A DNA stretch of 64,000 nucleotides from Dicyema japonicum (lineage: Eukaryota > Dicyemida > Rhombozoa > Dicyemidae). The translations under genes and the position numbers were made by a program. This document shows, in pieces, positions 4,894 to 63,511 of the stretch (position 1 is the stretch's first letter; each line of letters begins with the position of its first letter). The notes under the pieces are model-generated. The model did not search any database. It was given only the letters and a program-made list of their open reading frames with translations, and was not told where the DNA came from. The DNA is taken from positions 253,029 through 317,028 of the forward strand of contig RDEW01000047.1 of assembly GCA_011109175.1 (NCBI GenBank), in the 5' to 3' direction.

Positions 4894-5930
4894 ATGAACG
4901 TGAAAAGACATTTGTTTGTAGGTTGTAATAAAATAATAAAGATCAAGGTGGACTGCCAGAGAGTGCCGATGATAAATTACTCGAAGCAATTTTTACTCCT
5001 TTCGGTGAAGTATTAGAAGTTCAAATCCCAATGGACTACAAAACTGAAAAGAACCGAGGATTTGCCTTCGTAGAATTTGAGACTCCCGAAGAAGCAGCCT
5101 CAGCTGTCGACAACCTAGTAGATCCTTTACTCACATTAGAACGACTCCGAACTGTATGGGAGGACCCTCAAAGTTCACTACAACAATCCATCAAAAAGAG
5201 GAGAGGCCACTTCTAAGCCCGGTACTCATTTTAGTCATCCTAGTTTGGAACACTGAGGGATGGTTTGACAGATACACTGAAGCTCCCCCTCCTGAAGAAG
5301 GAGAGGAAGAACTGCCCGTTGTTCAGTCAAAGGAGACTGAGCTGACTGAACAGACGAAAGAAGAGACGGTTCCTGTTTCTGGTCCAAGTGGATTTCCCCT
5401 GGTGTACTTGGAGGTGACCATTGGGGGAGTAAAATCTGGGAGGATTTGCATTCAGCTGAGGACTGACGTGGTCCCTATTACTTGTGGTAAACTGTAGAAG
5501 TGATTTGTAGAGAATTTCCGTTGCCTGTGCACTCACGAGAAGGGGTTTGGGTTTCGTGGAATGGCCTTTTATCGAGTGATCCCAGACTTTATGTGCCAGG
5601 CAGGGGATATCGTCAACAACAACGGGAGTTTTGGGAAATCCATTTATGGGAGGAAGTTCAACGACGAGAATTTTGAGTTGAAGCACATGGGGCCGGGAAC
5701 TGTGGCGATGGCAAATTCAGGGATAAATACGAACTCTTCCAACTTTTATATAACCTTTACGAAGACTTCGTGGTTGGATGGTAAGAATGTTGTATTTGGG
5801 ACAGTCATGGAGGGTATGACTGTGTTGTATAAAATTGCGGTAATTGGAGGTTTTACTGTAGGCTATGGGGACTAAGAGTGGGAGACCACGAAAAAAGATT
5901 ACTGTGTTTGACTGTGGACAGATTAATTAA
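4894..5930 (+). CDS. PPIE: Peptidyl-prolyl isomerase E (RRM-cyclophilin)
   Basis: A nuclear spliceosome-associated cyclophilin with an N-terminal RNA-recognition motif. Six exons (4894-4921, 4948-5117, 5140-5221, 5244-5486, 5511-5839, 5862-5930) splice to 306 residues; vertebrate PPIE is about 300. The RRM shows RNP2 'LFVGGL' and RNP1 'RGFAFVEF'. A linker with '[10 protein letters not shown]' matches the family linker. The cyclophilin domain runs from about residue 140 to the C-terminus, with '[14 protein letters not shown]' (Arg, Phe, Met, Gln of the active site kept) and '[11 protein letters not shown]'. In the last motif the usual active-site His is Asn, and the usual SQFF is SNFY. The five introns are 26, 22, 22, 24 and 22 nt, all GT-AG; each is needed to keep frame and similarity. 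The last exon is duplicated downstream (5971-6096). Confidence 0.95.
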
Positions 5931-6096
5931 TTTTTGTTAATTTTAATTTTCATTACCTGTTTGGTTAATTTGGAGGTTTTACTGTAGGCTATGGGGACTA
6001 AGAGTGGGAGACCACGAAAAAAGATTACTGTGTTTGACTGTGGACAGATTAATTAATTTTTGTTAATTTTAATTTTCATTACCTGTTTGGTTAATT
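5845..6096. repeat. Perfect 126-bp tandem duplication of the PPIE last exon
   Basis: 5845-5970 and 5971-6096 are identical. The unit covers the end of the last PPIE intron, the whole terminal exon including its stop, and the start of the 3' flank. The second copy lacks an upstream exon and is non-coding as it stands. Perfect identity suggests a very recent event or an assembly artefact. Confidence 0.9.
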
Positions 6097-6520
6097 CTGT
6101 AAAATTTTTCCCCATTTTATATATTTTTTCTTGTCACCTTGAGTTGGAAAGGATACGTCTTAACCATTATTGAGAGACTTAATGCACGTGTATTAGAAAT
6201 ACATTAATTATAGGTCTGTGTTTGTTTACCTCACCACGTAAATATACATAAAATTATTCCAAAGACCAAGAGTTAAATCATGCGGTCATGTGCCGCTCAG
6301 TGCATGTTCTGCATGTAAAAGACACGTTTGACGTTCCCAACCCCTTTACGACCTTCATAAGGGTAGCCTATCAATTTCCCCGTTTTCTCTTTGCTACTTC
6401 TGGGTGATGATATAGAACCTAATCAAGGAATCTGAAATACGACTCTAAACTGATTATTCCACAATTAAATGGAATCTGCAATAAAGTCAACTATGTTCCC
6501 TCTTACCCCATTTTAAAGTC
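6097..6520. other. Spacer downstream of PPIE
   Basis: AT-rich 3' flank, then mixed sequence with no open frame longer than a few dozen codons. Similarity to LINE-A starts near 6525. Confidence 0.5.
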
Positions 6521-6524
6521 GACA

Positions 6525-7420
6525 TTGCTCACATTCAAGAATCAATGTTCTCTAGAACTTTCCTCACCCTTTGTTTTCCAAACTATTATGTACGCCTTGT
6601 CAAAAGTGTTAAAGAAGCTTGTAGTAATGTTAATCTCACATGTTCTACAATTCCCTGATTTTCAACATGGCTTCAGATCAGGTCGTTCTACAACGACGCA
6701 TTTGGGCTCTGTCTCCTAGTTCATCACAGAAGGCTTCAACTTGAAGACGCACTTACGTACGGCTCTGGTGTCTATCGATATACAAAATGCCTTCGACTGT
6801 TTCGAGACACTCCTAACGAAAAAATAATTCGAGTTTATATCCGAACATCATGCTATGGTTCGAATATTTCTTAACTGGCCAACGTGGAAGAGTCCAAATT
6901 AGTAAAACTACTTCAAAATCAAGACTACTCCAATATGGAATCCAACAAGGCTCCCGTTTACCCCCTATCTTGTTTAACTTAATTCTATACGACATACCTA
7001 CTACTAAAGATTATGACACAGTGTTTTTATCTTTCGCGGACGACCTGATTATCGGAGCAAGGGATAAATCTCCTTCCAGGGTAGTGGCGGTGGTTCAGTC
7101 ACACCATAACCTGTATCTGCATCCAAATCTCAGTTCATCCTATTCATTAAGGACAGGAAATTTAAAGGTGGACTGAGGTATTCTCTGGAAACATTCCTAT
7201 TCCTTCCACGCGAATTCAGAAGATCCTTGGAGTAACATTCGACTCCTTCAGTCATATGGAAATAGGGGCTTCGAAGTTGGAACGTTCTAAAGGCTCTCAT
7301 AAAGAAGAGCAACGTCCCACCTGCAGCTTGTATAAGTAAACTCTATATTCAAGTTATTGTGCAGACAATTGAATATTCCTGTTCTTCTTAGCTCTTTCCT
7401 CTTTGAGGTTCTGTCCTTTA
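6525..7420 (+). mobile_element. LINE-A reverse transcriptase fragment
   Basis: Plus-strand frames give RT motifs in order: 'FQHGFRSGRSTTTHL', 'ALVSIDIQNAFD' (motif A), 'GIQQGSRLPPILFNLILYDIP' region (motif B) and 'FADDLIIGA' (YADD equivalent), then thumb sequence to 'VQTIEYSCSS'. Several frameshifts and stops make it inactive. It is closely related to the copy at 11200-12032. Its 3' untranslated tail continues to about 7500 and shares a 'gtggatccgatga' block with 12210. Confidence 0.85.
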
Positions 7421-9147: not shown

Positions 9148-9946
9148 TTATATTAATTTAAAAATCAAGTCATTTAGAAAAATTCCTTGATCCCCAAATC
9201 TTGTGATAAGCTGCTTACGATTCCTTAGAGCAACTCCAGTTTGCGAACCAAGTTTGAAGGTAGAAAGAAAACATGTAACCTCCCTGAAATAAGGTCCAAC
9301 ATTATATATATGGTGAACAAGGTCCTCCATACACACAATATCATATTTTCCTTAAATTATCACAAATATCACCCAAATTATCGCTAATAACAGCATTTTT
9401 CGTTATTGGTTGGTTGTCCTCCACCGAACTTCCTCTCTTATAAATAAGGTTCCTCACTGTGCCGAGAGAAGGAGATCCCCAGATAATATACGAGTTTACA
9501 ATTTTCAGTAAAACTTCGACAGATCGGTTTTTCTTAATAAATATTCCTTCTAGGACGTCATTCAGTCGAAAAAGTTCTAGAATCTTGTTCACTCTGGACG
9601 GGCATTGAGTTTTACTAGACTAATGACGAATATTACTTTTTTAGACGAAGAACGAACACGACGGATTCAGTATCTGTCAGTTCTTCGTTTGCTCCTTTTT
9701 TTGCATCTCGGAAGAACTTTCTTTTCCCATTTTCCATGCAGTGATAATTTATATAGAAATTCCTAGCACGTTTTGTTGTGTCCCTCTTCTTTTCTCTTAA
9801 TTTCTTCTGTTTTTCTAGACGAATAAGTTTATTTTGTTTTCTAGTCTCCTCTGTGTCTCTTCTCCTCTTTAGAACAATTTCTGGAACTGGCCTCGGTCTA
9901 TTATTCCTAAAAGTAATTTTAAGTCACACAACTCAATATCAGTCAT
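9148..9946 (-). CDS. RPL7: 60S ribosomal protein L7 (uL30)
   Basis: A component of the large ribosomal subunit. Four exons on the minus strand (9933-9946, 9637-9906, 9373-9614, 9148-9350) give 242 residues, against about 248 in vertebrates. The first exon is only 14 nt. The basic N-terminus is followed by 'NKILELFRLNDVLEG', 'YIIWGSPSLGTVRNLIYKRG' and 'KYDIVCMEDLVHHIYNVG', which follow the family residue for residue in spacing. The three introns are 26, 22 and 22 nt. Removing them restores the conserved 'NLGKYDIVCMEDL' and 'RLKNKTQ' junctions. The C-terminal residues are less conserved ('GDQGIFLNDLI'). An open frame on the plus strand at 9778-10017 is antisense shadow. Confidence 0.95.
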
Positions 9947-12654: not shown

Positions 12655-12833
12655 AACGTCCCCCATCTTTTTCGATCCGTTGCCATTTTCCGTAGTGTAT
12701 CCTGAGATCTTCATCTAGAATAACCGGCAGTGTTGTCCTCGGCCGGCCGCGGAAACGAGAAGCTTCTAAGACAAAATACTCCTCCATTGCTATGTTGGAG
12801 GGGTCCCCATATCGTGGCGGAGTATGTGTCCAA
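12655..12833 (-). mobile_element. LINE-B C-terminal fragment
   Basis: Minus strand reads 'FGHILRHDMGTPPT', 'AMEEYFVLEASRFRGRPR' and 'TTLPVILDEDLRIHYGKW', the same order as the LINE-B C-terminus at 25070-25370. It is truncated on both sides and abuts the UBE2A promoter duplication. Confidence 0.7.
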
Positions 12834-13160
12834 AGTAGTTAATAAAGTTTTTATTATTGAAATCCCTCCAATAAGAATTATATAGTTAATTAATTCTTGT
12901 TATAACATTAGTTTTAATTATTAAATATTTAATAATTACATAGTTTGTAGTTGTGATGAACCCTTCAATGCGTAGATTAATAAGAGACTTAACATCCAAA
13001 GTAGTTAATAAAGTTTTTATTATTGAAATCCCTCCAATAAGAATTATATAGTTAATTAATTCTTGTTATAACATTAGTTTTAATTATTAAATATTTAATA
13101 ATTACATAGTTTGTAGTTGTGATGAACCCTTCAATGCGTAGATTAATAAGAGACTTAACA
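12829..13160. repeat. 166-bp tandem duplication including UBE2A exon 1
   Basis: 12829-12994 and 12995-13160 are direct copies with no N between them. Each contains an AT-rich leader and the first-exon coding sequence of the E2 gene (ATG at 12956 and 13122). Only the second copy is followed by the intron and the rest of the gene. Confidence 0.9.
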
Positions 13161-13680
13161 AAGTAATAACTGACTTTATATTACTAGAATGGAGAATGAG
13201 GATAAATATGGGCTTAGTGCGACACCTACAGACGAAGACTTTTACGTTTGGGATGCTGTGATAGTGGGGTATTATAATATCTTAATAAAAGACCTGAGGA
13301 CACCCCATATGCGAATGGAATATTCAAATTGAAGATGAACTTTACGCCGGAATACCCAAATAAGCCTCCAATTGTTAAGTTTGTTACTAAAATGTTTCAC
13401 CCTAATAGTATTTATATTTAAAATTGTAGTTTATGCTAGTGGACATATTTGTTTAGACATACTAAATGAGAAATGGAGTCCTTCATATGACGTTGGTTCT
13501 ATTTTAGCATCTATTCAATCACTCTTGGATGACCCATTTATTCAAAGTGCTGCTAACTTCCAGGCTGCTACTCTTTATACTAAAAATAAGAGAGAATATG
13601 ATAGGAAAGTTATGGATCTTATTGAAGCTAATGCTATGAGTGTTTCTGAGTTGGATAATAATGACCAACAAACTGACTAG
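13122..13680 (+). CDS. UBE2A: Ubiquitin-conjugating enzyme E2 A/B-like (Rad6)
   Basis: The E2 that, with Rad18- or Bre1-type E3 ligases, ubiquitinates PCNA and histone H2B. Four exons (13122-13162, 13188-13268, 13292-13407, 13430-13680) give 162 residues, slightly longer than the usual 152. The N-terminus '[12 protein letters not shown]' matches the Rad6 helix. '[14 protein letters not shown]', '[13 protein letters not shown]' and the 'KMFHPN' motif follow, and the catalytic Cys lies in 'GHICLDIL'. '[18 protein letters not shown]' is typical of this subfamily. The three introns are 25, 23 and 22 nt. The acidic C-terminal tail ends '[10 protein letters not shown]'. A duplicate of exon 1 lies just upstream. 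Confidence 0.94.
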
Positions 13681-14510: not shown

Positions 14511-14514
14511 TATA

Positions 14515-18493: not shown

Positions 18494-18680
18494 ACAACAT
18501 GTATTATTTTTTAATAAAATAGAATATTTTAGATGATTATGTCTCTGAAATATCTTCAGGTTTGTTTTAATTTTTTATTTAAGATTTTCATTATCAGAAT
18601 TCAAGAATAAACAATATTATAGGGAAAAGAGGGTTAAGTAGTGGTTAAATTGATTTTAAATTAACGCAGCTCTTTCTGTG

Positions 18681-28245: not shown

Positions 28246-30078
28246 ATGGAGGTTGACAATCACGACCTTTATTCTATTCTCAATATTCCGAGAACGGTTA
28301 TAATGTAAAAATATTATCAGGCAACGACAGATGAAATAAATACAATATACAAAGTATATAGTCTTCGCTATCATCCTGATAAACACCATGGAAAAGAAAA
28401 CAAACAAATAGCCTTGGAAATGTTCAACAAAATAAAATACGCCAGAGATGGTACTCTCTATTAATTAATGACAGTTCTCTGTGATCAAAACAGAAGAGCA
28501 ATTTACGACATTCTCGGACATGAGGGACTAAGGTCTCTTGGAAAGGATGTGATTCTCCGAACTAAAAGTGCAGAAGAAATTTACGAAGAATTTGCTTATG
28601 TTGAGAAACTAAAACGAAGGAAGGATCAAGAGGACTCTGTGGAACCAAAAGTCAATATTAATAGATAATGTAAGAGCACTACAAATATTATGATTGATGC
28701 CACTGATATATTCCAAAATGATGAGTTCATACAACTGTCAATGAGGAAGATAAGAATGAGTCAATCTATTTCATTTCCACTCAACTATAATGATAGAGTA
28801 ACTGTTATTAGTGAATGTGACACTTTGGGGGATCATAAATTTACTTTACTAACCAATCTCAATTCCCTTTGGCCTGGGAATATGTGCAATGTATTCCCAT
28901 TACTTTATTTTAGTTTGAGTGTTATTCAGGACGTAATATTGGTATTACAGGGACAATTTCTAAGCAATTGACAAACTCAATGTCTCTATTTGGTTTATAT
29001 TAGACATGCTTCCACAGGACTTGTTATTACTATTTATAATGGAATAGCCCCCATTATTATTGGGGGTATTTATATTTTTATACTTAGGAATTACTTGGAG
29101 ATTGTCTAACAGTCTAATATTAACTACACAACTAAATATGTCATTTCAATCAGCAGCACGGTTACAACTTCTGTGGAACTATTCAGGGACAGATTTTTCA
29201 TTGGCTTGTGACGTAATTATTTTTTATATTAAGATTGGACGATCCAACTATACATTGGCTGGCAAAGTATCCAAAAATATTAAAAAATTTGATTCCAAAA
29301 TAGCTTCTACTATTCAGTAGTGTTGTTTATTATGTTTAGATATGGAAATATTACTGGAATGGTTGCTTTATTCGACATCTCCAAGAACATCAATGATTAT
29401 ACAAGGATTACTTCTAAATTGTCACTATCAACAGTTGGAGGAGTTTCCCTTACTTTGAGGTGTTGTATATGTGTTATGCTAGACTAAAAAGAGGGAATCA
29501 GCAAATTAGTGTTCCATTTCAGCTTTCATCTTCTATCCTTCCATCCAGTCTTTTTTATGGATTAGTGCTTCCCCCCATATTATTTGGTTTGGCCACACGA
29601 CTTTACTCTAAATTCACGTATAAAGATGAAAAGTGGACTGATTATATTATTTAGTAGAAAATGTGAGTTTGAGGATATCAAATACCAGAATGAACGTTTG
29701 AAGGCAGAAAATATAATGAATTTCTTAAAAAGTGAGGCGGATAAAGTTAGGGCTTCAGAACAAGCTCAAAGAGGACTTGTGATTATGGCAGCATTGTGGG
29801 GACAAATAAACGACAAGTATATTATGGGAATTATTGAAGGGAGTCTTCTGAATGTTTGGATGTTACAAACTCCATTCAATTGTTGGTTAAAAAGTCATCA
29901 TTATATATTAGCAAGGATGTCAACAAAGTTCTCATTTTGTTCATTTTAGTGTGATTTACCAGGATTTTATAATATTTGTAGAGAAAAGACTAATTATTTG
30001 TATATAAAATATACATACTCGGGTCAACAAAATGATGCTGTGTTTAAAGATACTGACTATGTCAAGTTACCTCTATGA
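28246..30078 (+). CDS. DNAJC11: DnaJ homolog subfamily C member 11
   Basis: A J-domain protein of the mitochondrial MICOS/MIB bridging complex. Thirteen exons splice to 518 residues (vertebrate form about 559). The J domain is at residues about 5-75, with the HPD motif in 'LRYHPDKHHGKENK' and 'RRAIYDILGHEGL'. The middle part includes 'MIDATDIF' (family 'VDATDLF') and 'SQSISFPL'. The C-terminal domain has 'RASEQAQRGLVIMAALWG' and 'CDLPGFYNICREK', which match the family. The introns at 28297-28320, 28451-28474, 28651-28674, 28891-28913, 28993-29017, 29066-29087, 29213-29233, 29317-29339, 29460-29482, 29633-29654, 29817-29839 and 29928-29949 are 21-25 nt. Exon lengths sum to an exact multiple of three. 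Without splicing, the gene appears only as scattered short frames. Confidence 0.93.
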
Positions 30079-36409: not shown

Positions 36410-39400
36410 ATGAATGTGGATTTTGATATTAATGAGGGAAATAATGATAAACAAGTATTTGAAGGTATGAAATTAATATATATAATATATATTAGATTTA
36501 GCTAAAGAAAGAGAGCTTAATGAAGTCGAAAAACATATTAAATCATACATAAGTCACCTACATTCACTGACTAATAAAATTGATGGATCGATGAATATCA
36601 GGGACCCAGACTTTAATCCATTTAAAATTGAGGTTTATGAATTATATTAGTCAGATTAACCCAATAGAAAAGATCTCGTGTGGTAATTTGATATTTACTG
36701 AAAATCAATCACTTAGAAAGGTTATTTTGGCAGCTTGTGTGTTGTGTGAAGAGGCTGATAGATTATATAGTGATGCTAATGATCGCTTCTTTATTCCTTT
36801 GCTATTGTTTGAAATAAAAGGTATTATTTTGTGGTATTTTAATATCACTTATTAATTATTTTTTTAGAATTTAGATCATCAAACATATCTCTTGAAGTAA
36901 GAGGAGCACATATTCTTAATCTTTTACACGTTTTAATATGCATTATTACAGGATCTACGATGTTTTATTATCCACGTTGAGAATGTATGTGTTAATATTT
37001 ATTGTCAATTGAATGGACTATATTCTGATTCTATTAGGTTTTGTGCTTAATAATAACAGTAAACCAATAAAGAAATATGATGCCACCAAAGCCCATTTTC
37101 AAGTATTATTTGAAAAATTGGGGATGTTATTGACTATTCCTATTACTTTAACAGAAATATTAAAGTCATCATCCATTCTCAAACTTTCATTAGAAATGGT
37201 TGACAGGTAGTTACAATTACAAAAGTAGAATGATCAAAACAGATCAATCCGATGAGAAAAAACAGCTTATAAGGAGACTTAATTTGGAATTGACAACATT
37301 TTTCTTTAAACAATCACTTTTTGAAGTATATTTAATATGATAATAGAAAATAATACAATCAATATGTCAAATAGAGGGAGCCAGAATACCCCAAGTGGAG
37401 AAACATATAGAGATGACAATTATGAATATTCTTTCAATAAATCAGGAGGGTAATGCATATAGTAAATATAGCCAACAATGGGATTAAATATGTTTGTGCT
37501 TCTGTTCTCTTTATTCTACACTCTCGTATAAGTTTTGGGATTGACAAACGGTTGTTGGTTGAATTAGTATCTTCAAATGAGAAAGTATTGGTTATTATTA
37601 TCAGTTTGTGGTTGTAGAACTAGTTGGTAATGTCACGTGGTCATTGGGAACATTTTTAGAAATGTACTGTCCAAAATATTCCCAATTTGTTGATAAAAAA
37701 CTAATATCTAAAATTAAAGGATTATCAAAGGAGTGGAGAATGAAAATGTTGCCTCAATTAGACAAGTTTGTTTAATTTATTATTAGAATTATTTATTCTC
37801 TTAATAATAAAGTAATAACATGGTCTTGTAAATTTAAATTTATCCCAAATTCATCAGTTGATCTTGATTTGATACTACAGGTATTTTATTATTAATTTAG
37901 ATTATAAAATATTTATTTACCATTCGTAATACTTTGGTGTTCTTTCTGGGATTAAAGGATAATTTACCATCACTTGCGAGATTAGTTCATTTATTAAAGG
38001 TTATTTTATTTATTATTATAGTTTGTTCAACATTTCTTTTTCACTCATAAATTATTTTTTATTAGATATATCCTACAGTCAATAGAATTGTCACATAATA
38101 AACTTATTAAGATAATAACAGATATAAAGACTATTATTTCGGGAGTGACTACTAAATCAAATATTAGTGATGATCGTATTGATACTCTTTCTTGTATTAA
38201 TTTGATTATTTCGACTCTAAATGGACCTGGTTATTATATATTTTATTATTTAGTTACCTCCAAACGAATTACTGTTATTAAACATGCAATCAGTGGATGT
38301 AAGAGATTTGTAATTTTTACTAATTAATTATAGAATATCAAAGGAGTCGATTTTGAACTTTTTGAATCAACTTTGAATAGATTGGATATATTTAGTAATA
38401 TATTCTCTATGTAATAATCTATACTAATTTTTAGTTGTAGGAAATTGTGTGATTGTGGATTTCTTATTTGGTATGTTCCCCATTTTGTTGATTTGTTCTT
38501 CCTTGGAAACTCATCCTTATACTCAAATCAAGTATTACTCATTTATATTTGTAGTATACTCTTGCTGCCTTTAGAGATATTGTAAAAGTTACTTCTTTTT
38601 ACCCGTCAGTCGATGAAACGGACTTTTCACTTGAACTATTATGCAGTAAATTATTTTCAATTGTTGAGAAGGTTATAATTCTAATACATTTAGAATTCTT
38701 TAACTTTATTTTGCTCAATGGTTGAACAGGAACTTAGATTTGCCTCTTATTTGAGTCTCAGACTTGATGACTCTTTTAAGAAATCAGCAGACTGGAGGGA
38801 TATTCTTAGAAATCAACAGATGATATTCCCGGATGGAGCAATGTCTTTGAAAGGTAATATATAATATTTACATTAGAACACGTGTCACATTATTTAGATA
38901 GTACATTTTATAATTTCACTACTATTGCTCTTTATGATTCACCAGTATATTTAAGAATGAGAACAATTGGATCTTTCAAATATGATTTAGAGCTTACTGG
39001 CGGGCAACTGCCGCGTCATGCTGTTAATCAGGTATTCATTAGTTTTATTTAAGGGAATTGATGTGTTGAATTTAATAAGAGAGATTGGTGAGTTTGTGAC
39101 CAGTCATTGTTATAATATTAATAACCAGGTCATTATACTAGTAATTAATAGATTTTTGTACAAAAGAGTAGTCCAAATAAGCATTTAATAACAATAGGAA
39201 TAGATCAAATGTCAAATTCTATAAGAACTCACGGTAATGGAATAATAAATACTACTGTTGCTTGCTTATTTATTTTAGGTTAATTTTATTTATCAATTTA
39301 TTCGTGAAAAATTATTCCTATTTTCCCAATTTTTATTTGATTCCCATATTAAATCAAGACTTTATAAAGAAATTAAATATTGTGATGAAAATAAAAATAA

Positions 39401-40314
39401 TCTTAAAGTATATTAATATATAATTAATAGTATCCATTTAATAGAGCCGAAAGGTTTAACTCTGAGATTCGTCAATTGGGTGTTGAAAATGGACAAACAT
39501 ATCTTGATAGATTTAGATTTCTTATATCCCACATTGGTTATATTATTTATTATTATAGGTAATGCTCTTGCCCTTGTAAGATTAATACGATCAGCAGCTA
39601 TGCATATTTCTGGATATGCTGTTAAATTTGTCCCTGATCTAAATCACAAATCTTCATTTTATGATATTATTTCAGGATTGGACGAACATGTTGATGATGC
39701 TGCCAAGTATTTATTATATTAATTTTTTTATGAATTTTGATAGTGTTCTATCTGGTCTTATTGAGAGATCTTCAAGACACAATGAATATTTTAAAGTATT
39801 TAATAGTAATAATAGATTCTATGTGACGTATTTACAATTGAATTTAAATCTACTAAACATTCACATTTGGATGACTTTTACATGATACTACCATCTCTTG
39901 TTTATATTCTTAATATTATAGACTTTAAATTATATTGAATATATCATTTGTTGTAAAGAAAAAATTAATAGAAAGGAGATTGATGATGCTATATTTTCTG
40001 ATGATGGATTTGCCATTGGTTTTATTCATTATTATTTTAGGACTTGTTTTTATTTTGACTGTTTTACATCAATATAAAAAGTTTGATTCTTTACACTGGT
40101 TTACATCAGTTTCAGATTATTATACTCAGATGATTGACTCGGAAAGTGCTTCTAGAGCGACTCGCAATGAAACTAATCTACAAAAAGCAATGTCATTAAC
40201 TTTGAAACGTCTTGATACTTTTAAAAAGGTTTTTATTTATTTATTTTCTTATAGGAATATTCTCTTCTTAATTTTTCTATGAGTAGTGCTAGAATATTCT
40301 TTACTGTTGATTGA
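36410..40314 (+). CDS. WASHC4: WASH complex subunit 4 (SWIP)
   Basis: A scaffold subunit of the WASH complex, which drives Arp2/3 actin nucleation on endosomes. The gene runs from ATG 36410 to TGA 40314 in many small exons, giving roughly 1,050 residues; the vertebrate protein is about 1,170. Matches run the full length. N-terminal: '[20 protein letters not shown]' and '[17 protein letters not shown]'. Middle: '[12 protein letters not shown]'. C-terminal: '[20 protein letters not shown]', '[20 protein letters not shown]', '[18 protein letters not shown]', '[17 protein letters not shown]' and '[13 protein letters not shown]'. Introns that I could place exactly include 36930-36951, 37038-37059, 37207-37228 and 39537-39558, all 22 nt. 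The last intron is 26 nt. In total I estimate 25-30 introns, some slightly longer (30-46 nt). Not every junction was fixed. Confidence 0.92.
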
Positions 40315-41935: not shown

Positions 41936-43218
41936 ATGTCATCAGGAGAGTCAGAATATTGTTATGAATTACTTAAACTATCAATTATTAGAATATGTGA
42001 GGCATTCGGATTTAAGAGTATTAATACAAGACCACTCCATGTGATTGCTAATATCCTCCAATCAAATTTGATTAAAATCGGGAAAAACCTTTCTGACATA
42101 AAGGAAAGTGGTTATAAATATATTTAAAGTTAGAAAGTGAATATTATTTATCTAAAATATTTGCAGGAACCACAATTGATAATTATGATGACTTTGATTT
42201 AATACCAATCCAACCAATTGAACGAATTAATTTTCCAGCTGAATTTGAAGAACATGTTAATTATTTTCATGATATTCAACTTGATAAATTATTAAAACAA
42301 AAAGGTACTTCATATATATTACTAGAATTAATAAAACATGAAATGGAACAAATGGTACCTCAAGATATTAATAATACTACTCCCATAATATCTCAATCAA
42401 CAGAAATTCACAACAGACATACTGAACCATCGTCAGTTGTCACTCTTACTATTATGGAGGATGTGTTTGATCTTCCTAATACTTTTCAAGTTCCGGAATA
42501 CTACAAAAATACAGCAATCGAAGTAAAGAAGGACTCATCTGATGAAGACATAGTCCATAATGAGATTCAACCTTATTTGCCAACAAAATTGACAAGCTCC
42601 TCTCCTATAAAGTCTAATAAGAAACCAATTGATGATGTTGATAAGTCTCCTCTAGTAACTCCAACGAAGGTGAAATTAGTGGATTCCAAATGTGGAGAAT
42701 CAAAGTAAATAATGTATTAATGGAAGATCAAAGAAAAGATTAGGTGTAATGAAAGGACCTCCATGTGAAGTAAGGATAAAAGTAAGTGATTTGGAGAAAT
42801 CAATAAGAAAAGTAGTAATAAATATATTTAAGGTTAAACAAATTCGAGTGAAATGTGGATCAGAGAGTATTGTATGTACATTAAATGGTAATAAAGTAAT
42901 AAAGCAAAGTCCATTATTGGTAAAACTACCAGCGTATAATAGTATTACATATTTAGTCAACTTTTGAATCAAGATGTTAGAAAACCATTAGAGGTTGATA
43001 AAGTGTTTAGTGACTCTGATGAAAAGTCAGGAATATGTCCAAAATGTAAGAATAGTGATATTCCATCTGAAATGATCTGTTGTGATAGTTGTTATGATTG
43101 GTATCATTGGAAATGTGTTGGAATTACTACTGAACCTGACGCTAATCTTAACTATTACTGTCACAAATGTTCTACCACTGTGGCTGGTACTTTTCATGAA
43201 TTTGGACTTCTTTTATAA
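41936..43218 (+). CDS. TAF3: Transcription initiation factor TFIID subunit 3
   Basis: TFIID subunit whose PHD finger reads H3K4me3. Five exons (41936-42110, 42134-42304, 42326-42704, 42727-42933, 42957-43218) give 397 residues. The N-terminal histone fold matches the TAF3 BTP domain ('YCYELLKLSIIRICEAFGF', 'VIANILQSNLIKIGKNLSDI') and is followed by the 'NYDDFDLIPIQPIERINFP' block. The middle is short and Ser/Lys/Asp-rich. The C-terminal PHD has 'GICPKCKNSDI', 'MICCDSCYDWYHWKCVG' and 'YYCHKC', with the Trp of 'DWYHWKCVGI' that lines the methyl-lysine pocket. Introns are 23, 21, 22 and 23 nt. Vertebrate TAF3 is about 930 residues, so the low-complexity centre is strongly reduced while both end domains are kept. 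Confidence 0.92.
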
Positions 43219-50505: not shown

Positions 50506-50873
50506 ATGGGTGACGATAGCTTTACTTCTATTTTATATGAACTTAGTAGAAACTATAAAAGAGATACTCCAAAGTCAACTAAGCTCATTGATGCTTACTT
50601 ATGTTTTACTGTTCTCAGTGCTCTTGTCATTTTTATTTATGGAATAGTTTTTGGTGTTTTTCCATTCAATTCCTTTCTCTCAGCCTTTATTTCGTGTGTG
50701 GGTTCCTTCGTCTTTGCCGGTATTTTGCATAATTACCATTAGTCTCTCTTCGCATTCAAACAAATCCCTCTAATAAGAAACTTTTTGACAATCTTATTCC
50801 AGAAAGAGCTTTAGGAGACTTTTTATTTGCTCACGTGGTACTACATTTAGTAGTAATGAATTACATTGGATAG
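50506..50873 (+). CDS. DAD1: Oligosaccharyltransferase subunit DAD1
   Basis: An essential small membrane subunit of the ER oligosaccharyltransferase complex, which N-glycosylates nascent proteins. Two exons (50506-50719 and 50743-50873) give 114 residues, against 113 in vertebrates. The N-terminus '[20 protein letters not shown]' and '[20 protein letters not shown]' match transmembrane segments 1 and 2. After the 23-nt intron come '[12 protein letters not shown]' and '[20 protein letters not shown]', ending 'NYIG'. Unspliced, the frame would stop early at 50742. The upstream 50 bp is very AT-rich. Confidence 0.96.
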
Positions 50874-56871: not shown

Positions 56872-56876
56872 CGTTT

Positions 56877-58033
56877 ACTCTCTTTTCTTTCCTTAATAAA
56901 ATTTATTATTTATTTTGGTAAATTAATTATTCATATTAATTTACATGATTACAATTCCTATTTATTTCATATGTATCAGAGTAATAATGCCAGAATTTAC
57001 GAGAACATTTTATTTATTTATTTTAATAACCCCGGGAACACCGAGAAAGAAAGACAAAAGAGTCAAACAGTTAAGTGATCCCAGTCCTCGCAATCAATTG
57101 TGCCATTCGACGTCTGATCTTCCATTGTCCCCACTACTTTCCGGAAGAGCCTTCTCTCGGTCTTGCAGAGGAATCCGATCGGGGAGGGGAATTTCTTATC
57201 CAATCGCTTTTCTCTTGCCATGGAAAGGATCAGGCGAAGCGGGTTTCCATCTTCCTCACAGACGCGAAGAAATCCGGAGCCACGACTAAGGATCTTAGCT
57301 TCCATGAGTAGTGGGTCGACTGTTGATCCATTACGTGGGCAAACATACTGATTGTTTTCTGGTGTATTGAGTTGACTCTTTGGACCATAGACTCCGATAG
57401 CGCGAATCTCCATGCAACGGAGGCATACTCAACGGCTGGCGCGATTGTTTGTTGGNACTCTCTTTTCTTTCCTTAATAAAATTTATTATTTATTTTGGTA
57501 AATTAATTATTTATATTAATTTACATGATTACAATTCCTATTTATTTCATATGTATCAGAGTAATAATGTCAGAATTTACGAGAACATTTTATTTATTTT
57601 AATAACCCCGGGAACACCGAGAAAGAAAGACAAAAGAGTCAAACAGTTAAGTGATCCCAGTCCTCGCAATCAATTGTGCCATTCGACGTCTGATCTTCCA
57701 TTGTCCCCACTACTTTCCGGAAGAGCCTTCTCTCGGTCTTGCAGAGGAATCCGATCGGGGAGGGGAATTTCTTATCCAATCGGTTTTCTCTTGCCATGGA
57801 AAGGATCAGGCGAAGCGGGTTTCCATCTTCCTCACAGACGCGAAGAAATCCGGAACCACGACTACGGATCTTAGCTTCCATGAGTAGTGGGTCGACTGTT
57901 GATCCATTACGTGGGCAAAGCATACTGATTGTTTTCTGGTGTATTGAGTTGACTCTGTGGACCATAGACTCCGATAGCGCGAATCTCCATGCAACGGAGG
58001 CATACTCAACGGCTGGCGCGATTGTTTGTTGGT
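56877..58033. repeat. 579-bp duplication around the single N at 57456
   Basis: 56877-57455 and 57457-58033 are near-identical copies, each holding an AT-rich flank, the LINE-A 3' terminal sequence and about 370 bp of the LINE-A C-terminal coding region. They meet at the N. The left copy ends where the right contig begins, so the left C-terminal frame (57063-57413, -) is probably not a second insertion. Confidence 0.9.
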
Positions 58034-60580
58034 AGAGGGTAGAAACAGAAAAGTCCATATTCCTCGGGGTCCTCCGGACAAGGGCGCGTAAAACGTTAAT
58101 TTTCTGGAGGCCCCTGGTAATCATGTCTTTTGCGTGGGAGTTAAAATTGAGTAGACTGTCGTACTTGACTCCAAGGACAGTGGGGGACCTTGTCACTGGA
58201 ATCCGAGTGGGACCAATAAAGATACTCGGTTCATCCTTAGAACGACGGTCCGAAGTGAAAGTGGAACAGATAGACTTGGTTGCAGAAATCGTAAGTCGAT
58301 TGCCAACAATCCAATCGTGGAGAGTGTTCAATTTTGCCTGAGTTTTAAAGGATGCGACGAGCGGTTCCGTATTGCAATGACTACATCGTCTGCGTAGGAT
58401 AATAGCAGGGAATCTTTGTCTCCATCATTAGGTAGGTCGTGTAGGAATAAGTTGAATAGAATTGGTGAAAGTGGAGACCCCTAGGGTACCCCGTTCGGTA
58501 GTAATCGTGATCTAGATCTGAGATCACCACTGATTACTCTTCCACGTCTTCCAGACAAAAAGTTGGGCAGCCATAATTTTACATTCGGACGAATATTAGT
58601 AGAAAATATTTTTCCAACCAGGATTTTCCTCGAAACAGTGTCAAAGGCTTTGTTGATGTCAATAGAAACCAAGATTGTGCGTTTTTGAGGCAGGGAATGG
58701 GTGTTAAAACCGTCGGCAATGAACTGCGATAGGGTTGCCAAGTATGTAGCGGTGGACCTACCGCGGAGGAAACCATGTTGAAATATAGGACGTGGAAGAT
58801 ACGGAATAATGACAGATAATACAAATTTTTGACAGTGTGCTGGTAACAGATATAGGCCTGTAGGAGGCAGGTTCTGTCTTTGGAATAATATTATAGTTAA
58901 TGGACAGGTTGTATATTTGCGTGAGGTAGCCAATTGCGTAGTGGCTTAGGTGTTTTAGGTGAATAGAAGATACTTTGTCAGGCCCGCACGCCCGTGAGCT
59001 CTTTAATATGGTGATAACATCCAAGACTTGGTCATTTGTGAATAATTCGTGGTAAGGTTCCTTCTTCGGTTTATGGGCACGCACCTTAATGTCCAGGTGT
59101 TTCGAGAAAGGTTTGAAGCTAATTCCAGCGTAATGTTTCATAAGGGTGTTAGGATGTAGGTGGCATAAGTGTTCAGGAAAAGACTTTCCGGTTTCGTCTG
59201 CATCATCCAGCTCCGACTTGACTTGTTTAAGAGTTTTTCAGAAATGTCGGGATGTACTTTTCCTGTCGAGGTGGTTAACTAGATGCTGCCATCTCTTGTC
59301 CTTGTGTTCTTTTATGCTCTGACAGATCCTTTTATTTAGTTGTCTGAGGGCTGTCAAAGACTTCAGGTCCAACAGATGGCATCTCTTCAACCGGTCTCTT
59401 TGTTTATAAGACTTATTGTATAAGAGCTGAGGGTAGGAATAAACTTCTTGTACGATATAGGAATAAAAATATGGTCAGCTTTCTGAATGGCAGTGCTGAT
59501 AATTTCTGCGGCATCATCAATAGAGCGTATTGGAGAGGATAATCTCAGGGCCAAGAATTTATCCACAAGGTTACTGAAATCGGACCAGTCAACCTTCGTA
59601 TAATCCTTGAATCTTTTTGATTCCGCCGGCCGTCTCCTGTATCGTCGAAGACCTCTCAATTTTAGAAGGATTGGATTGTGGTCACTGGAGAAGCCGTAAA
59701 AGACGTTCCAGGAAATGAATCCAGCCAGAGAAGGTGAGCATAGTGTTAAGTTGGGGGATGTGCAGCTATCAGTCATCCTTAATGGGGTCCTCGTATAGAG
59801 TTAGGGTTGTTCAGTATAATCAGGTCAGGAAGATAATTTACAATGAGTTCTCGGTTATCAGAGGATTGGGAAGTAAGCCAAACTGGATGTCGTGCATTAA
59901 GATCCCCACATAACAGTAGATTTTTCAATGTTGAAATGCGTGATAAATCAGGGGTGTAAGATGTCGGACACGATCCTTGTGGAGGAATATATAAATTAGC
60001 CAAATGGATCCAAAAAAACGGGAATAACTCGATTTTGACAGTAATCTGCTCCAAAGTCTTGTCAGTGCCATAGAGCTCTGAGGTTCGTTGAGTTTTATCC
60101 ATAAAAGGAATATCGTTCTTCATAATAGTAAGTAGTCATCCTCCGCGTCCTCCCTGACGATCTTTACGGATCACTGTGTATCCGGGAAAAGAGGGTGTTG
60201 GTATGGAGGGAGATAGCTTGAACTCCTGTATTAAATCGAGGTCAGCCTCATTTTCGCGGAAGAGTGCCCGGAGTTCAAAGATTTTCTTCCTGATCCCATT
60301 CGTATTCAGTTGTATAATTGTAAAACCTCTCCATGGACCATGATTGGTTTTGACGTCTCCACATAGAAGAATCAAAAGTCTGGACAAATGGGGACACCAG
60401 ACAGGGTCGAAGACACAGGAGATGAAAAGACCACCGGACGGTGGGGAGAAGCTGTTGGCTCTTTTCGTTCCTTTTTGGAATGGGTGACACCATTTCTGGT
60501 GAGCCACATGACACCACGCTAACAACATTTCTAAATGGATGGCTGTGCTAATTCCGATAACATTAAGAGAAAGAATCAAA
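57595..60580 (-). mobile_element. LINE-A element, nearly full length
   Basis: From 60579 on the minus strand: an N-terminal segment with Cys/His pairs, a 2A-like motif 'LCGDVKTNHGP' (60334-60366), then the APE endonuclease ('IIQLNTNGIRKKIFELRALF', 'NLLLCGDLNARHPVW', 'SSDHNPILLKLRG'). RT follows: 'SRACGPDKVSSIHLKHLSHY', 'PASYRPISVTSTLSKI', 'TILVSIDINKAFDTVSRKIL', 'PNGVP' then an in-frame TAG for the usual Gln, 'GSPLSPILFNLFLHDLP', 'LSYADDVVIAIRN'. The C-terminus runs 58331-57639 as one 230-codon frame. I count two in-frame stops and about four frameshifts over 3 kb, so it is inactive but young compared with other copies. The 3' end carries the family's terminal sequence before an AT-rich flank. 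Confidence 0.9.
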
Positions 60581-60985
60581 GAGAAAATAGTACGAGAACA
60601 TCAAGATGGTAAATGATATAGAAAGCATTCGAAAACTTTTAATATTATAATCAGCTCAATTGGAAGCATCATTATGATTAGGCTTACCATCCGTCCGGAT
60701 TTTGTCCCGGATTATTAAATTTATTATTATTTAGTAATGTGGGGTTGTGATAATCAAAAATTTCTAGATAAAGTCCATTCAGTTCAAAAATTTCAAATAA
60801 ATATATTTTTTTGTCCCGGAAAGTTTTTGATTTTAATTATCAAAATCAATAAATGTCCCGGAATTTTAGAATAATAAAGTGGTAACCTAGATATAACCAA
60901 TTTGGTATGTGTTACGACAGCTTGACATAGAAATTCAATGTCAGCGTTTACAGAAAAGTCCTCGACTTCTCTTTTACGTCGAATA
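60581..60985. other. Spacer
   Basis: 5' flank of the LINE-A element and AT-rich DNA. The phrase 'tttgtcccgga' recurs three times (60695-60870) without forming a regular array. No gene seen. Confidence 0.4.
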
Positions 60986-61385: not shown

Positions 61386-61624
61386 GGAACTTCAGAAAGA
61401 GAAAAAAAAGTTTACAGTCATAGCTAGTTTTAATAGGTTCCAGTACATTAAACCAAAAAAATTAAATCATTATAGAGCAAATAATATTCATAATGTCAAT
61501 GTATTACGTAATCAATGAGTCATGACAGGTATCTTCTCGTACCCACGGTTAAAGACATTTACCCATGTGACTCTACCACATTCGATAATCTAAAATGGAA
61601 ATAAATAATCTTGTTATCTTATCT

Positions 61625-62200
61625 CTTAATTTTACAACCCAAGACCACGGTAAAACCAAACTAATGAACGTTTGTTAGTTAACCCCAACCTCACTAACTT
61701 GTAGGAGGCCAGGAGCTATTAAGTAGGACGCAGCAGATGTTGGTTGTTCCCATAGATCGGTCAGTTCCGGCATTGTGGAGAAACGTTGTGCCAATTCATG
61801 ACATTGAAATAGATGATTTGTTGTCAACACGTGGAGGTTGCAAAAAAGGACAGAGTATATTATATGTTGATAGATATGGGTAGTGCCCACATCGTAGACG
61901 AGTCAGGTTTACTCGGACATCCCTTGGAAGAGAGGATTCTGATTGGTCTATTGGAGGAGAGGGTTGCTGTAATATTTTATTGTCTTCGAGTCTTCAGATG
62001 CTTCTCGTAGAAACAAAATCGTGTGTCTGTTTCAGACGACTCCTGTCATTGGGGATGGATGATAAGATTCGAGACAGGTCACTGGTTGTCATAATAAATT
62101 TCCTTTTGTTTTGCGGTTTGCATAGAGAGTGGCAGGGATGTTCTAGGCTGTAGGCTTGGGAGGGGAACTGCAGGGCTCTCATTTCCAGATGGTCTCCAAT
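61625..62200 (-). mobile_element. LINE-C 3' end with zinc knuckle
   Basis: Minus strand 62180-61675 in two frames: 'DVRVNLTRLRCGHYPYLSTY', then 'FCNLHVLTTNHLFQCHELAQ' and 'LTDLWEQPTSAASYLI'. The LR.GH...L..Y and C.LH...T..HLF.C..L blocks are the C-terminal zinc knuckle of I/Jockey-type LINEs. Terminal sequence at 61630-61660. Matches 30870-31230. Confidence 0.75.
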
Positions 62201-62353
62201 TGGAAGGATCTTTGACTCCCAATGTAAACTAATGAACCTACAATGATGGAATAAAGAAATTAATAGATATTAATAATTAAAATATTAAATTTAATAATAA
62301 TTGTTATCAGTATTTATCGCAAAATTGTATAAGAATTTTAATTTTACGTTGTA

Positions 62354-63511
62354 ATGGATTTCATAGAGACTGATCCTATTGATAATAATTGTCATTGCCA
62401 TTCACAAAAACCAAATGATTATACAACAAAGAAGGCTAAAAGAAAGCTGTTGATTGCTTTTTTTATTGCTGTGACTTTTACTTTGTTAGAATTCATAGGT
62501 AATCCATTAAATATAATTAAGGTGGAATTATGTCCAACAGTATTTCTGTTATGACTGACTCTGCTCATATGCTAGTCGATATTATCAGCATATTTGTTAG
62601 CTACCTATCACTTGTTGCTCTCTCAAAACCATCAACAAAGAAATTTAGTTTTGGGTGGCATAGAATTGGTTATTTGCTTTAAATAACTAAAGAGGTATTG
62701 GCTTCTCTCTTTTCCATGATGTTGTTGATTATTCTCACTGTTATTTTGGATTATGCTGCTGTTTATAGGGTTATCAATGGGAATTTCAAGATTGATGCTA
62801 AAATTATGTTAATAGTTTCAGCCTGTGGGGTTGTCTTCAATGTTATGTTGGTCTTTAAACTTTATTTAGAATGGTATTGATCCTTCATAGTGGACATGAC
62901 CACTCTCACAATGGTGATTAATAATAATTTTATTTAGAATCCCATGAACATAGTCACCATAGTATGGGCTTATCAGCTGCATTTGTGCATGTAGTAGGGG
63001 ACTTAATTCAGAGTGTAGGTGTATTTACAGCAGCTCTTATTATATATTTTAAGGTTATAATAAATCATTATTATAGCCTAATCTTATAATTGCTGACCCA
63101 ATTTGTACTTTTATCTTTTCTATTTTGGTCATCATAAGCATGTACAAGGTTATTAAGGATATATTCTATGTTTTAATGGAAGGTAATCATTTTCCTCATA
63201 TGGTAGCTGTTCCAGTCGGTGTTGACTATAATGCTCTATGGAATAGTCTCGCTGGAATTCACGGAGTTGTAGCAGTACACAATGTCAGAGCCTGGTCCCT
63301 CACTCATTCAAAACTTGTATTTGCTGCACACGTGGCTATTGGTTTGGTTATGTAAAAATGTCTAGAAACAAATAGTGATTATTGTTACATTTTGAATCAA
63401 TGTTCAAATAAACTAAAAGAAGAATTTAATTTTTCAGAAATATATCTTCAAGTAGAAGAATATCATCAAAAAATGGAAAATTGTACAGACTGTGTGGGTC
63501 CAAAGACATGA
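62354..63511 (+). CDS. Zinc transporter, SLC30A/ZnT2-3-4-8 group
   Basis: A cation diffusion facilitator moving zinc into vesicles in exchange for protons. Eight exons (62354-62498, 62522-62668, 62693-62846, 62870-62913, 62938-63053, 63077-63182, 63207-63341, 63366-63511) give 330 residues. An N-terminal His/Cys cluster 'NNCHCHSQ' precedes TM1. TM2 holds 'MTDSAHMLVDIIS' and TM5 'AAFVHVVGDLIQSVG', providing the paired His and Asp of the transport site. A cytoplasmic His loop 'HSGHDHSHNESHEHSHHSMG' lies between TM4 and TM5. 'ADPICTFIFSILV' and the C-terminal 'LMEAVPVGVDYNALWNSL' domain follow, ending 'CTDCVGPKT'. Seven introns of 23-24 nt. The ZnT2/3/4/8 subgroup is indicated by the 'ADPICTF.FS' and C-terminal patterns. 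Confidence 0.94.

Follow-up and report, generated by a model that had tools for sequence, protein, structure and literature searches.

Can an animal splice introns that are little longer than twenty nucleotides with an ordinary spliceosome, and if so, how would their ends be found? This question is raised by a 64,000-nt stretch of the Dicyema japonicum genome (the window), where an initial annotation, made from the letters alone, had placed introns of 20-26 nt in nearly all host genes. Introns of about 22-24 nt are among the shortest known. That dicyemid introns are tiny has already been published, and the phenomenon is known: means of 26.2 +- 1.9 nt are given for Dicyema acuticephalum (n=16; PMC2222250) and 24.93 nt (s.d. 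2.51, n=41) for dicyemids (PMC2483917), a median of 27 with about two thirds below 30 for a Dicyema sp. (PMC6543705), and a mean of 38.2 for annotated D. japonicum introns (PMC6736024). A branch-point signature was reported as absent when the 41 introns were scored with CTRAY-type hexamers (PMC2483917). The present work adds junctions of 22-24 nt checked by homology, together with a signal for the branch point, which may be new, one published survey having reported none.

Results

Intron lengths

Protein-guided spliced alignment, in which GT-AG ends were required, the minimum length was 12 nt and the intron cost was independent of length, gave 49 introns in seven genes that were kept (Table 1). 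Forty-eight of them are 20-26 nt long (mean 22.8, s.d. 1.3), as had been claimed, and a 37-nt intron in WASHC4 is the one outlier. The mode is 22 nt and the median 23 nt, with two introns of 20 nt, two of 21, 19 of 22, 12 of 23, nine of 24, two of 25, two of 26 and one of 37. All 49 are GT-AG, but both the aligner and the gene finder required this. Alignments of WASHC4, DNAJC11 and the zinc transporter yielded 58 candidate introns, and those supported by at least 4/5, 2/3 or 5/6 guides, respectively, were kept (38, with 20 dropped). Nine of the dropped candidates are also 20-26 nt long and the other 11 are of 13, 29, 38, 44, 47, 55, 60, 77, 175, 404 and 557 nt; the 13-nt candidate (37450-37462) passed the guide rule (4/5) and was omitted as disputed, a 22-nt alternative scoring about equal.

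The same peak was found by a gene finder whose prior on length was flat. Run on the window and 200 kb of the same assembly, it placed 139 of 162 introns at 20-26 nt, or 128 of 144 after removal of three models judged spurious or retroelement-like, and the peak remained at 22-24 nt when its splice weights were taken away. No gene model scoring at least 10 was returned on reversed sequence, which shows only that genes were not being built from noise. Retention would bring in an in-frame stop for 29 of the 33 predicted introns of 3n length. Elsewhere in the assembly, gaps between exon matches implied 20-26 nt at 17 of 20 junctions, these having been chosen by eye.

Table 1. Positions in the window of the genes and introns analysed, with the evidence for each.
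Feature	Position	Strand	Length (nt)	Evidence or remark
PPIE (cyclophilin E) gene	4894..5930	+		5 introns, spliced alignment
PPIE intron	4922..4947	+	26	homology; gene finder chose 20 nt
PPIE intron	5118..5139	+	22	spliced alignment
PPIE intron	5222..5243	+	22	spliced alignment
PPIE intron	5487..5510	+	24	spliced alignment
PPIE intron	5840..5861	+	22	spliced alignment
RPL7 (uL30) gene	9148..9946	-		3 introns
RPL7 first intron	9907-9932	-	26	gene finder only
RPL7 intron	9615..9636	-	22	spliced alignment
RPL7 intron	9351..9372	-	22	spliced alignment
UBE2A/RAD6-type E2 gene	13122..13680	+		3 introns
UBE2A intron	13163..13187	+	25	spliced alignment
UBE2A intron	13269..13291	+	23	spliced alignment
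UBE2A intron	13408..13429	+	22	spliced alignment
DNAJC11 gene	28246..30078	+		9 kept introns, 2 from gene finder
DNAJC11 intron	28297..28320	+	24	3/3 guides
DNAJC11 intron	28451..28474	+	24	3/3 guides
DNAJC11 intron	28651..28674	+	24	3/3 guides
DNAJC11 intron	28891-28913	+	23	gene finder
DNAJC11 intron	28982-29003	+	22	gene finder
DNAJC11 intron	29066..29087	+	22	2/3 guides
DNAJC11 intron	29317..29339	+	23	3/3 guides
DNAJC11 intron	29460..29482	+	23	3/3 guides
DNAJC11 intron	29633..29657	+	25	2/3 guides; third guide gives 22 nt
DNAJC11 intron	29817..29839	+	23	3/3 guides
DNAJC11 intron	29928..29949	+	22	3/3 guides
WASHC4 gene	36410..40314	+		two models from the gene finder, approximate ends; 23 introns kept
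WASHC4 intron	36633..36654	+	22	5/5 guides
WASHC4 intron	36930..36951	+	22	5/5 guides
WASHC4 intron	37038..37059	+	22	5/5 guides
WASHC4 intron	37207..37228	+	22	5/5 guides
WASHC4 intron	37326..37346	+	21	5/5 guides
WASHC4 intron	37766..37786	+	21	5/5 guides
WASHC4 intron	37881..37900	+	20	5/5 guides
WASHC4 intron	38000..38021	+	22	5/5 guides
WASHC4 intron	38310..38333	+	24	4/5 guides
WASHC4 intron	38411..38434	+	24	5/5 guides
WASHC4 intron	38532..38554	+	23	5/5 guides
WASHC4 intron	38672..38693	+	22	5/5 guides
WASHC4 intron	38854..38876	+	23	5/5 guides
WASHC4 intron	39032..39053	+	22	5/5 guides
WASHC4 intron	39129..39151	+	23	5/5 guides
WASHC4 intron	39257..39278	+	22	5/5 guides
WASHC4 intron	39408..39430	+	23	5/5 guides
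WASHC4 intron	39537..39558	+	22	5/5 guides
WASHC4 intron	39707..39743	+	37	5/5 guides; sole long exception in kept set
WASHC4 intron	39796..39815	+	20	5/5 guides
WASHC4 intron	39900..39921	+	22	5/5 guides
WASHC4 intron	40019..40040	+	22	5/5 guides
WASHC4 intron	40229..40254	+	26	5/5 guides
PHD-finger gene, TAF3-like	41936..43218	+		4 introns, gene finder only
PHD-finger gene intron	42108-42133	+	26	gene finder only
PHD-finger gene intron	42705-42726	+	22	gene finder only
PHD-finger gene intron	42812-42832	+	21	gene finder only
PHD-finger gene intron	42920-42942	+	23	gene finder only
DAD1-like gene (matched part)	50518..50870	+		spliced alignment
DAD1 intron	50720..50742	+	23	human guide
SLC30-type zinc transporter gene	62354..63511	+		6 kept introns (23-24 nt), one weaker
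Zinc transporter intron	62499..62521	+	23	6/6 guides
Zinc transporter intron	62669..62692	+	24	6/6 guides
Zinc transporter intron	62847..62869	+	23	6/6 guides; gene finder: 17 nt at 62874-62890
Zinc transporter intron	62914..62937	+	24	6/6 guides
Zinc transporter intron	63054..63076	+	23	6/6 guides
Zinc transporter intron	63183-63206	+	24	2/6 guides, outside kept set; gene finder
Zinc transporter intron	63342..63365	+	24	5/6 guides

Gene by gene, the series proposed in the initial annotation were reproduced exactly by spliced alignment for PPIE (26/22/22/24/22, the gene finder differing at the first intron) and UBE2A (25/23/22). The 306-aa spliced product of PPIE matches PPIE chain 5mqf_o (E 5.5e-111), and that of UBE2A aligns over 152 residues without gaps across all three junctions. 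The single 23-nt intron of the DAD1-like gene was recovered with human DAD1 as the guide (59 of 110 residues identical), and WASHC4 introns of exactly 22 nt were recovered as well, nearly all of the 23 kept there having 5/5 guides. Elsewhere agreement was partial. Both 22-nt introns of RPL7 were returned by spliced alignment and its 26-nt intron by the gene finder only; for DNAJC11, where twelve introns of 21-25 nt had been proposed, nine were kept by homology (22-25 nt), with two more from the gene finder; and six of seven introns of 23-24 nt in the zinc transporter were kept, the seventh having 2/6 guides and a gene-finder prediction. For the gene labelled TAF3 in the initial annotation, whose sole matched region is the PHD domain, the gene finder alone gave 26/22/21/23, compared with the proposed 23/21/22/23. 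The bHLH, C2H2 and SPMIP1-like genes each consist of one uninterrupted reading frame or come close to it. Gene finding by open frames, said in the initial annotation to fail here, can miss the homology-checked junctions of 22-24 nt. The interval 4894-63511 also has much retroelement-like and non-genic DNA.

Splice sites and the branch-point signal

The 5' splice site is weak, the usual G at +5 being mostly U, and donor information over positions +3 to +6 amounts to 1.93 bits before any correction for composition. Intron interiors are very AT-rich (46.5% T) compared with the GC-richer exons, and T stands at -3 in 36 of the 49 kept introns. When simple features are used to tell real introns apart from GT-AG decoys in exons, the AUC is 0.937; at 90% recall 86 of 446 decoys remain, about 3.4 per kb of exon, so that specificity is only partly explained by such features.

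It had been claimed that these lengths leave almost no room between donor, branch point and acceptor. This is correct, yet most of the introns carry a branch-point-like A. TNA with its A 7 nt from the 3' end occurs in 25 of 48 confirmed introns, and at -7 or -8 in 33, with 15 lacking it at both positions. Its frequency at -7 (25/47) compares with 4.6 expected from genomic GT-AG segments and with 8.4 +- 2.5 in shuffled interiors, none of 2000 shuffles being as high. Taken by itself, the -8 register does not exceed shuffles in the confirmed set (10/47; 627 of 2000 as high), a second, smaller excess lies at -10 (14/47; 64 of 2000 as high), and none was found at -6 (5/47) or -9 (4/47). When the splice weights were left out, TNA at -7 was present in 57% of 54 predicted 22-nt introns compared with 11% of 1584 background segments.

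A motif search from random starts recovers T-N-A-Y-T. For 149 introns, a set that is partly circular in that the gene-finder acceptor weights cover the last 8 bases, the log-likelihood was 99.8 against 11.2-31.3 in 12 shuffled sets; anchoring at the 3' end (99.8) was better than at the 5' end (75.8), and the motif A fell at -7 in 48%, -8 in 22% and -9 in 12%. In introns of 25-26 nt the motif is weaker and further upstream. With its most frequent distance from the 3' end being 7 nt, the A comes at roughly nucleotide 14 to 18 of the intron, and at the 16th in a 22-nt intron. A yUnAy-type, branch-point-like motif ahead of the AG, as expected of U2-type introns, is present in most confirmed introns.

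Spliceosome components and the host genome

The genome contains 25 U2 snRNA matches, 22 of them above the cut-off, 10 U6 matches (nine above) and 11 U1 matches (none above; best 69.0 against 69.5). Inspection of U2 and U6 had been suggested beforehand, and their recognition boxes are intact at six loci each; the boxes read in four U1 loci are likewise canonical, one U1 copy being ACTTACTTGG-like in its box. Human U1, U2 and U6 have the same recognition sequences. Matches of SF1, U2AF2, Slu7, Prp18, RED and METTL16 type were found, the U2AF2 pieces each falling below the cut-off of a model that also fires in 2 of 14 control genomes. SPF45/RBM17 was not detected in the whole assembly with one human SPF45 UHM query (73 aa, searched exon by exon in a divergent genome), the single match being a U2AF2-like UHM (26 bits, 34%).

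The present assembly has 64.67 Mb in 191 contigs (largest seen, 2.46 Mb), with 35.6% GC in the window and 37.8% in the 200-kb stretch; in this it resembles the published D. japonicum assembly, with 67.5 Mb in 377 scaffolds, an N50 of 1.0 Mb and 36.7% GC (PMC6736024). Gene content is animal-like, in that the named WASHC4 matches are animals (best 120 of 573) and SPMIP1 and bHLH genes are present. Among the matches listed for WASHC4 (best 120 of 573), DNAJC11 (10 of 10) and the zinc transporter (best 120 of 583), none carries the name of a dicyemid. The suggestion of a dicyemid-like genome is supported by the assembly figures and by the uniformity of the introns, 48 of 49 falling within the range of about 20-30 nt published for dicyemids.

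Discussion

We favour, at a probability of about 0.8, the view that these segments are genuine spliceosomal introns of the major, U2 type, reduced in a dicyemid almost to what is physically possible, which from their sequence would be removed by ordinary splicing with a 3'-anchored branch site. For a canonical spliceosome, measurement would start at the 3' side of the intron, where U2 would pair with a branch site at near-constant distance from the AG, and introns would be told from exons partly by composition and length and not by a strong donor or polypyrimidine tract. U1 and U2 hardly fit together in their usual manner on so short an intron, and therefore U6 probably takes over donor recognition from U1 at an early point. 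RED/SMU1 and other B-complex factors may assist this hand-over. RED has a role on short introns. A role of SMU1 on short introns is described in PMC12862383.

Could the segments have arisen through errors of sequencing or assembly, or could these be decayed, frameshifted gene copies? The assembly does have gaps and two perfect tandem duplications within genes, and as GT-AG was required by both programs, the independent evidence is that of length, composition and motif. Against this, the peak at 22-24 nt arose although no length was favoured, the spliced products follow conserved proteins and gaps of the same size recur elsewhere in the assembly, which makes error or decay highly improbable. 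Removal from DNA, in the manner of ciliate internal eliminated sequences, seems more remote still. Short eliminated sequences of Paramecium are similar in length to these introns. Circular contigs are reported in Dicyema (PMC6543705), but a GT-AG reading with a branch-like motif fits, and the genome has both snRNAs and genes for the spliceosome. More weight, while still unlikely, must be given to the possibility that the TNA signal merely reflects AT-richness or an acceptor context that extends further inward (a U-rich stretch before UAG). The abundance of T at -3 and in the interiors, the 15 introns without TNA at -7 or -8 and the excess at -10 would suit this; shuffling of each intron's own interior nevertheless abolishes the -7 signal, registers -6 and -9 show no excess in the confirmed set, the recovered motif is ordered U-N-A-Y, and U2 retains its box.

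We consider it similarly improbable that splicing of the short introns depends on SPF45/RBM17. Only 4-5 nt separate the putative branch A from the AG, and RBM17 acts on truncated polypyrimidine tracts in human cells (PMC8363638) and RBM17 is retained in Paramecium bursaria (PMC12862383); the UHM search, a weak negative, speaks against it. A whole-genome squeeze for economy, proposed for dicyemids in PMC2222250, appears doubtful as the cause of the shortness. Across the 64,000 nt of the window, the coding sequence of ten host-like models (DAD1 left out) totals 10,071 nt and their introns 1,373 nt, and 48.9% of the D. japonicum genome is reported as repeats (PMC6736024), so that trimming introns would save little; a peak with an s.d. 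of 1.3 nt looks rather as if the machinery itself had a ruler.

Earlier dicyemid introns share lengths of about 20-30 nt, several introns per gene and a weak donor, but have means or medians of 25-27 nt (annotated mean 38.2), compared with a median of 23 here; the donor score of 0.5 bits in PMC2483917 is below our 1.93 bits, and the measures may differ. The yUnAy-type signal at a near-fixed place may be new, given the absence reported in that survey. Paramecium introns (median 24-25 nt; PMC12862383) are alike in length range, GT-AG ends and U2 dependence, but belong to a ciliate that retains RBM17, undetected here by one UHM query. In the ciliate Stentor coeruleus the branch A is likewise almost fixed, the U2 and U6 recognition sites are conserved and there is no strong branch consensus; its introns are of 15-16 nt, with the A at the 10th nucleotide of 15 (6th from the 3' end) or the 11th of 16 (PMC9505925), compared with the 16th of 22 and mostly the 7th from the end here. 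The kept lengths are not of this Stentor type. The orthonectid Intoshia linei, another mesozoan, has reduced introns at similar density with a median of 57 nt (PMC6543705), compared with 23 nt here.

In human genes, the minimal productive donor-to-branch distance is 46 nt in EMD intron 5, and HBB intron 1 fails almost completely below 47 nt (PMC11291888). We think it fairly probable that dicyemids combine unchanged U1, U2 and U6 recognition sequences with no detected RBM17, a yUnAy branch site fixed some 7-8 nt ahead of the 3' splice site and U for G at +5, and, with the same degree of confidence, that the branch A lies at about the 14th to 18th nucleotide, about a third of that human minimum. 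Once donor and branch point are less than about 46 nt apart, splicing of the human introns tested fails, while an animal whose snRNA boxes are the same seems to get by with about 15. The contrast turns the question of minimum length into a direct comparison of spliceosome proteins and, if true, dicyemids would offer, within the animals, a natural test of which feature of the spliceosome determines how short an intron can be.

Intron structures placed by homology

The assembly that holds the window comprises 64,672,829 bases in 191 contigs. Introns were placed with a purpose-written local spliced aligner, which compares a homologous protein with DNA and admits any GT-AG intron of at least 12 nt at a length-independent charge. 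When guided by sequences of solved structures, it gave introns of 26/22/22/24/22 nt in PPIE and 25/23/22 nt in UBE2A, the lengths already proposed in the initial annotation, and 22/22 nt in RPL7. For WASHC4, DNAJC11 and the SLC30-type zinc transporter the guides (five among the 120 matches listed, three of ten, and six among the 120 listed, respectively) were picked by eye for spread and length, and an intron was kept if at least four of five, two of three or five of six guides supported it, one disputed place excepted. This retained 38 of 58 candidates, and one further intron was placed in DAD1, with what we take to be the human DAD1 sequence as guide. Of the 49 introns kept in all, 48 are 20-26 nt long and the other is 37 nt. 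The initial claim of systematic 20-26-nt introns was right, and its interpretation of them as pointing to a dicyemid-like genome is supported. The phenomenon is a known one, tiny dicyemid introns being described in PMC2222250, PMC2483917, PMC6543705 and PMC6736024.

Features of the window and of contigs C1 and C115 of the assembly
Feature	Sequence	Positions	Observation
WASHC4 intron, 37 nt	window	39707-39743	only kept intron longer than 26 nt; supported by 5/5 guides
WASHC4 disputed intron	window	37450-37471	13 nt (4/5 guides) or 22 nt (one guide), with similar scores
PPIE tandem duplication	window	5844-6095	perfect, 126 nt, covering the last exon together with the end of the intron before it; of very recent origin or else an artefact of assembly
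UBE2A tandem duplication	window	12829-13160	perfect, 166 nt, most of the first exon and upstream region
Reverse transcriptase-like frames of retroelements	window	2428-3124, 6850-7176, 11238-11825, 48302-48712, 57639-60579	resemblance judged by eye
SPMIP1 (sperm microtubule inner protein 1)-like gene	window	52181-52714	notable for so simple-bodied an animal
bHLH protein	window	52953-53423	single frame, one HLH domain
Gap	window	32280-32695	416 N
Doubtful gene models	window	18323-19290, 33342-34494	taken for spurious or retroelement-like
Doubtful gene model	C1 stretch	59502-60966	taken for spurious or retroelement-like
U2 snRNA matches	C115	about 851000-962500	six in ~112 kb, one just 108 nt

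Intron lengths in predicted genes

Genes were also predicted in the window and in 200 kb of contig C1 with a semi-Markov gene finder, which learned from the multi-intron genes it had itself predicted and gave equal prior weight to all intron lengths of 15-40 nt. Its output comprised 25 genes and 162 introns, of which 139 measure 20-26 nt (45 of 22 nt, 39 of 23 nt and 21 of 24 nt); the reversed sequence gave zero genes with a score of at least 10. Removal of the three doubtful models (18 introns, 11 of 20-26 nt) leaves 128 of 144 introns in this range; three introns of the doubtful C1 model were also included in the branch-motif sets. With the splice weights switched off the boundaries became noisy (462 introns in 52 models), and lengths of 22, 23 and 24 nt ranked highest with 54, 49 and 35 introns. 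Wider flat priors were rejected. A prior of 15-70 nt on the window alone placed 51 of 75 introns at 20-26 nt, one of 15-150 nt led the model into frames resembling retroelements (112 of 326 introns at 20-26 nt, above a flat background), and ab initio gene finding at 15-400 nt was dropped as it overreached with long false introns. A first genome-wide pattern search was uninformative, giving more matches in the control than for the pattern.

A coarser view is given by exon-by-exon family matches in other parts of the assembly, from which the intron length implied between neighbouring matches along one gene can be read. In 20 neighbouring pairs picked by eye from kinases, U2AF2, Slu7 and Prp18, 17 imply 20-26 nt, nine of these exactly 22 nt, and the others 13, 38 and 68 nt. 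Nineteen hand-paired junctions, the 13-nt and 38-nt gaps among them, have at most seven model positions missing or doubled; the 68-nt gap is the first U2AF2 pair, which conforms to the pairing rule and has one match with internal stops. Eleven pairs with at least nine missing positions (implied lengths of 24 to 225 nt) were excluded because unaligned insertions spoil the implied lengths.

Intron anatomy and a putative positional branch-point signal

The interiors of the confirmed introns have 14.5% GC, against 37.6% in exons. The donor GU is followed by A or U at +3 in 43 of the 49 kept introns, while +5 is U in 36 and G in three; agreement with CAG|GTAAGT averages 4.83 of nine positions over 48 introns, where composition predicts 3.82. 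The base preceding the terminal AG is U in 36/49 and G in 0/49. Among the predicted introns of 20 genes, phases 0, 1 and 2 occur 72, 36 and 35 times, and retention would bring an in-frame stop in 29 of the 33 introns of 3n length.

In the 45 predicted 22-nt introns, position 14 is T in 82% and position 16 is A in 84%. Because the gene finder's acceptor weights extend over position 16, the signal was tested in freer ways. In 47 confirmed, homology-placed introns of 20-26 nt, TNA, the core of the branch-point-like yUnAy motif, has its A at -7 from the intron 3' end in 25 cases. The expected number is 4.6 on the basis of genomic GT-AG segments and 8.4 +- 2.5 after shuffling of the interiors, and none of 2000 shuffles reaches 25. 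The other registers hold five at -6, ten at -8 (no excess over shuffles), four at -9, 14 at -10 (as high in 64/2000 shuffles) and 11 at -11. The 77 predicted C1 introns give 31 at -7 (0/2000 shuffles) and 17 at -8 (36/2000), and with splice weights off TNA stands at -7 in 57% of 54 predicted 22-nt introns versus 11% of 1584 background segments. Five spliceosome-related loci have it at -7 or -8 in 12 of 24 introns, a count made without a shuffle control.

An unsupervised EM motif search, started at random and then rerun on 149 introns from the motif found, returned T-N-A-Y-T, whose A stands at -7, -8 and -9 in 48%, 22% and 12% of introns. The log-likelihood of the motif, anchored at the 3' end, was 99.8 versus 11.2-31.3 in 12 shuffled sets, for which the search began from the already-found motif and was given 40 rounds, as opposed to 60 with the real introns; anchoring at the 5' end lowered it to 75.8. 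The motif is less clear and lies farther upstream in introns of 25-26 nt, and 15 of 48 confirmed introns have no TNA at -7 or -8. With just 4-5 nt separating the putative branch A from the AG, an ordinary polypyrimidine tract is absent.

The splicing machinery

The U2 and U6 snRNAs, whose inspection had been proposed in the initial annotation, proved to have intact recognition boxes, GUAGUA in six of six U2 loci read and ACAGAGA in six of six U6 loci read. The U1 end ACUUACCUG is present in three of four loci read and differs by one base in the fourth; even the highest-scoring U1 match falls 0.5 bits short of the family cut-off. The window itself has zero Rfam matches at gathering scores and zero tRNAs in a bacterial-code scan.

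In yeast, Slu7 and Prp18 are dispensable at short branch-to-acceptor distances, and their loss was for this reason expected here. Both are present, however, scoring 222.6 and 187.9 bits once their tiny introns had been spliced out. Spliced models likewise bore out the domains of SF1 and RED. U2AF2 appears as ordered pieces over positions 168-510 of a 510-position model, each below the cut-off of a model that also gives matches in 2/14 control genomes. Loss of METTL16, which had been expected as the reason why G is lacking at +5 and A is weak at +4, was set aside in view of a PF05971 match, a family that also matches in 5/14 control genomes; we take the match to be METTL16 from its NPPF-type motif. 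Searched for in the assembly through its UHM, SPF45/RBM17 was not found, the sole match being a U2AF2-like UHM, which hints at its absence. Judged from sequence, the predicted components are those of ordinary U2-type splicing.

How tiny introns may be recognised

A saving in genome size accounts poorly for the short introns, since those of the ten host-like gene models in the window make up only ~2% of it. The anatomy of the introns suggests recognition from the 3' side, in which the distance from branch A to AG would be almost fixed and variation in length would fall mostly in the stretch from donor to branch site. Taken together, composition, length and the weak signals distinguish introns from decoys in exons with an AUC of 0.937; 86 of 446 decoys remain at 90% recall, so something further must aid recognition. 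In the human introns tested in PMC11291888, splicing fails at donor-branch spacings below about 46 nt, whereas here the putative A lies at about position 14 to 18 of the intron. U1 and U2 are therefore unlikely to be bound next to each other as in those human introns, and we infer that U1 may hand the donor over to U6 early.

A branch A set by position is described for Stentor in PMC9505925. For dicyemids, PMC2483917 reported no branch-point signature; its scoring relied on WCTRAY- or CTRAYN-type hexamers, by which a position-held TNAY motif would be missed. As far as literature searches on dicyemids and branch points show, which turned up PMC2483917 and a paper on nuclear receptors, a positional branch signal in these animals is new, though Ogino et al. 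2010 may already treat branch points. It is the branch-point geometry that is the part worth pursuing.
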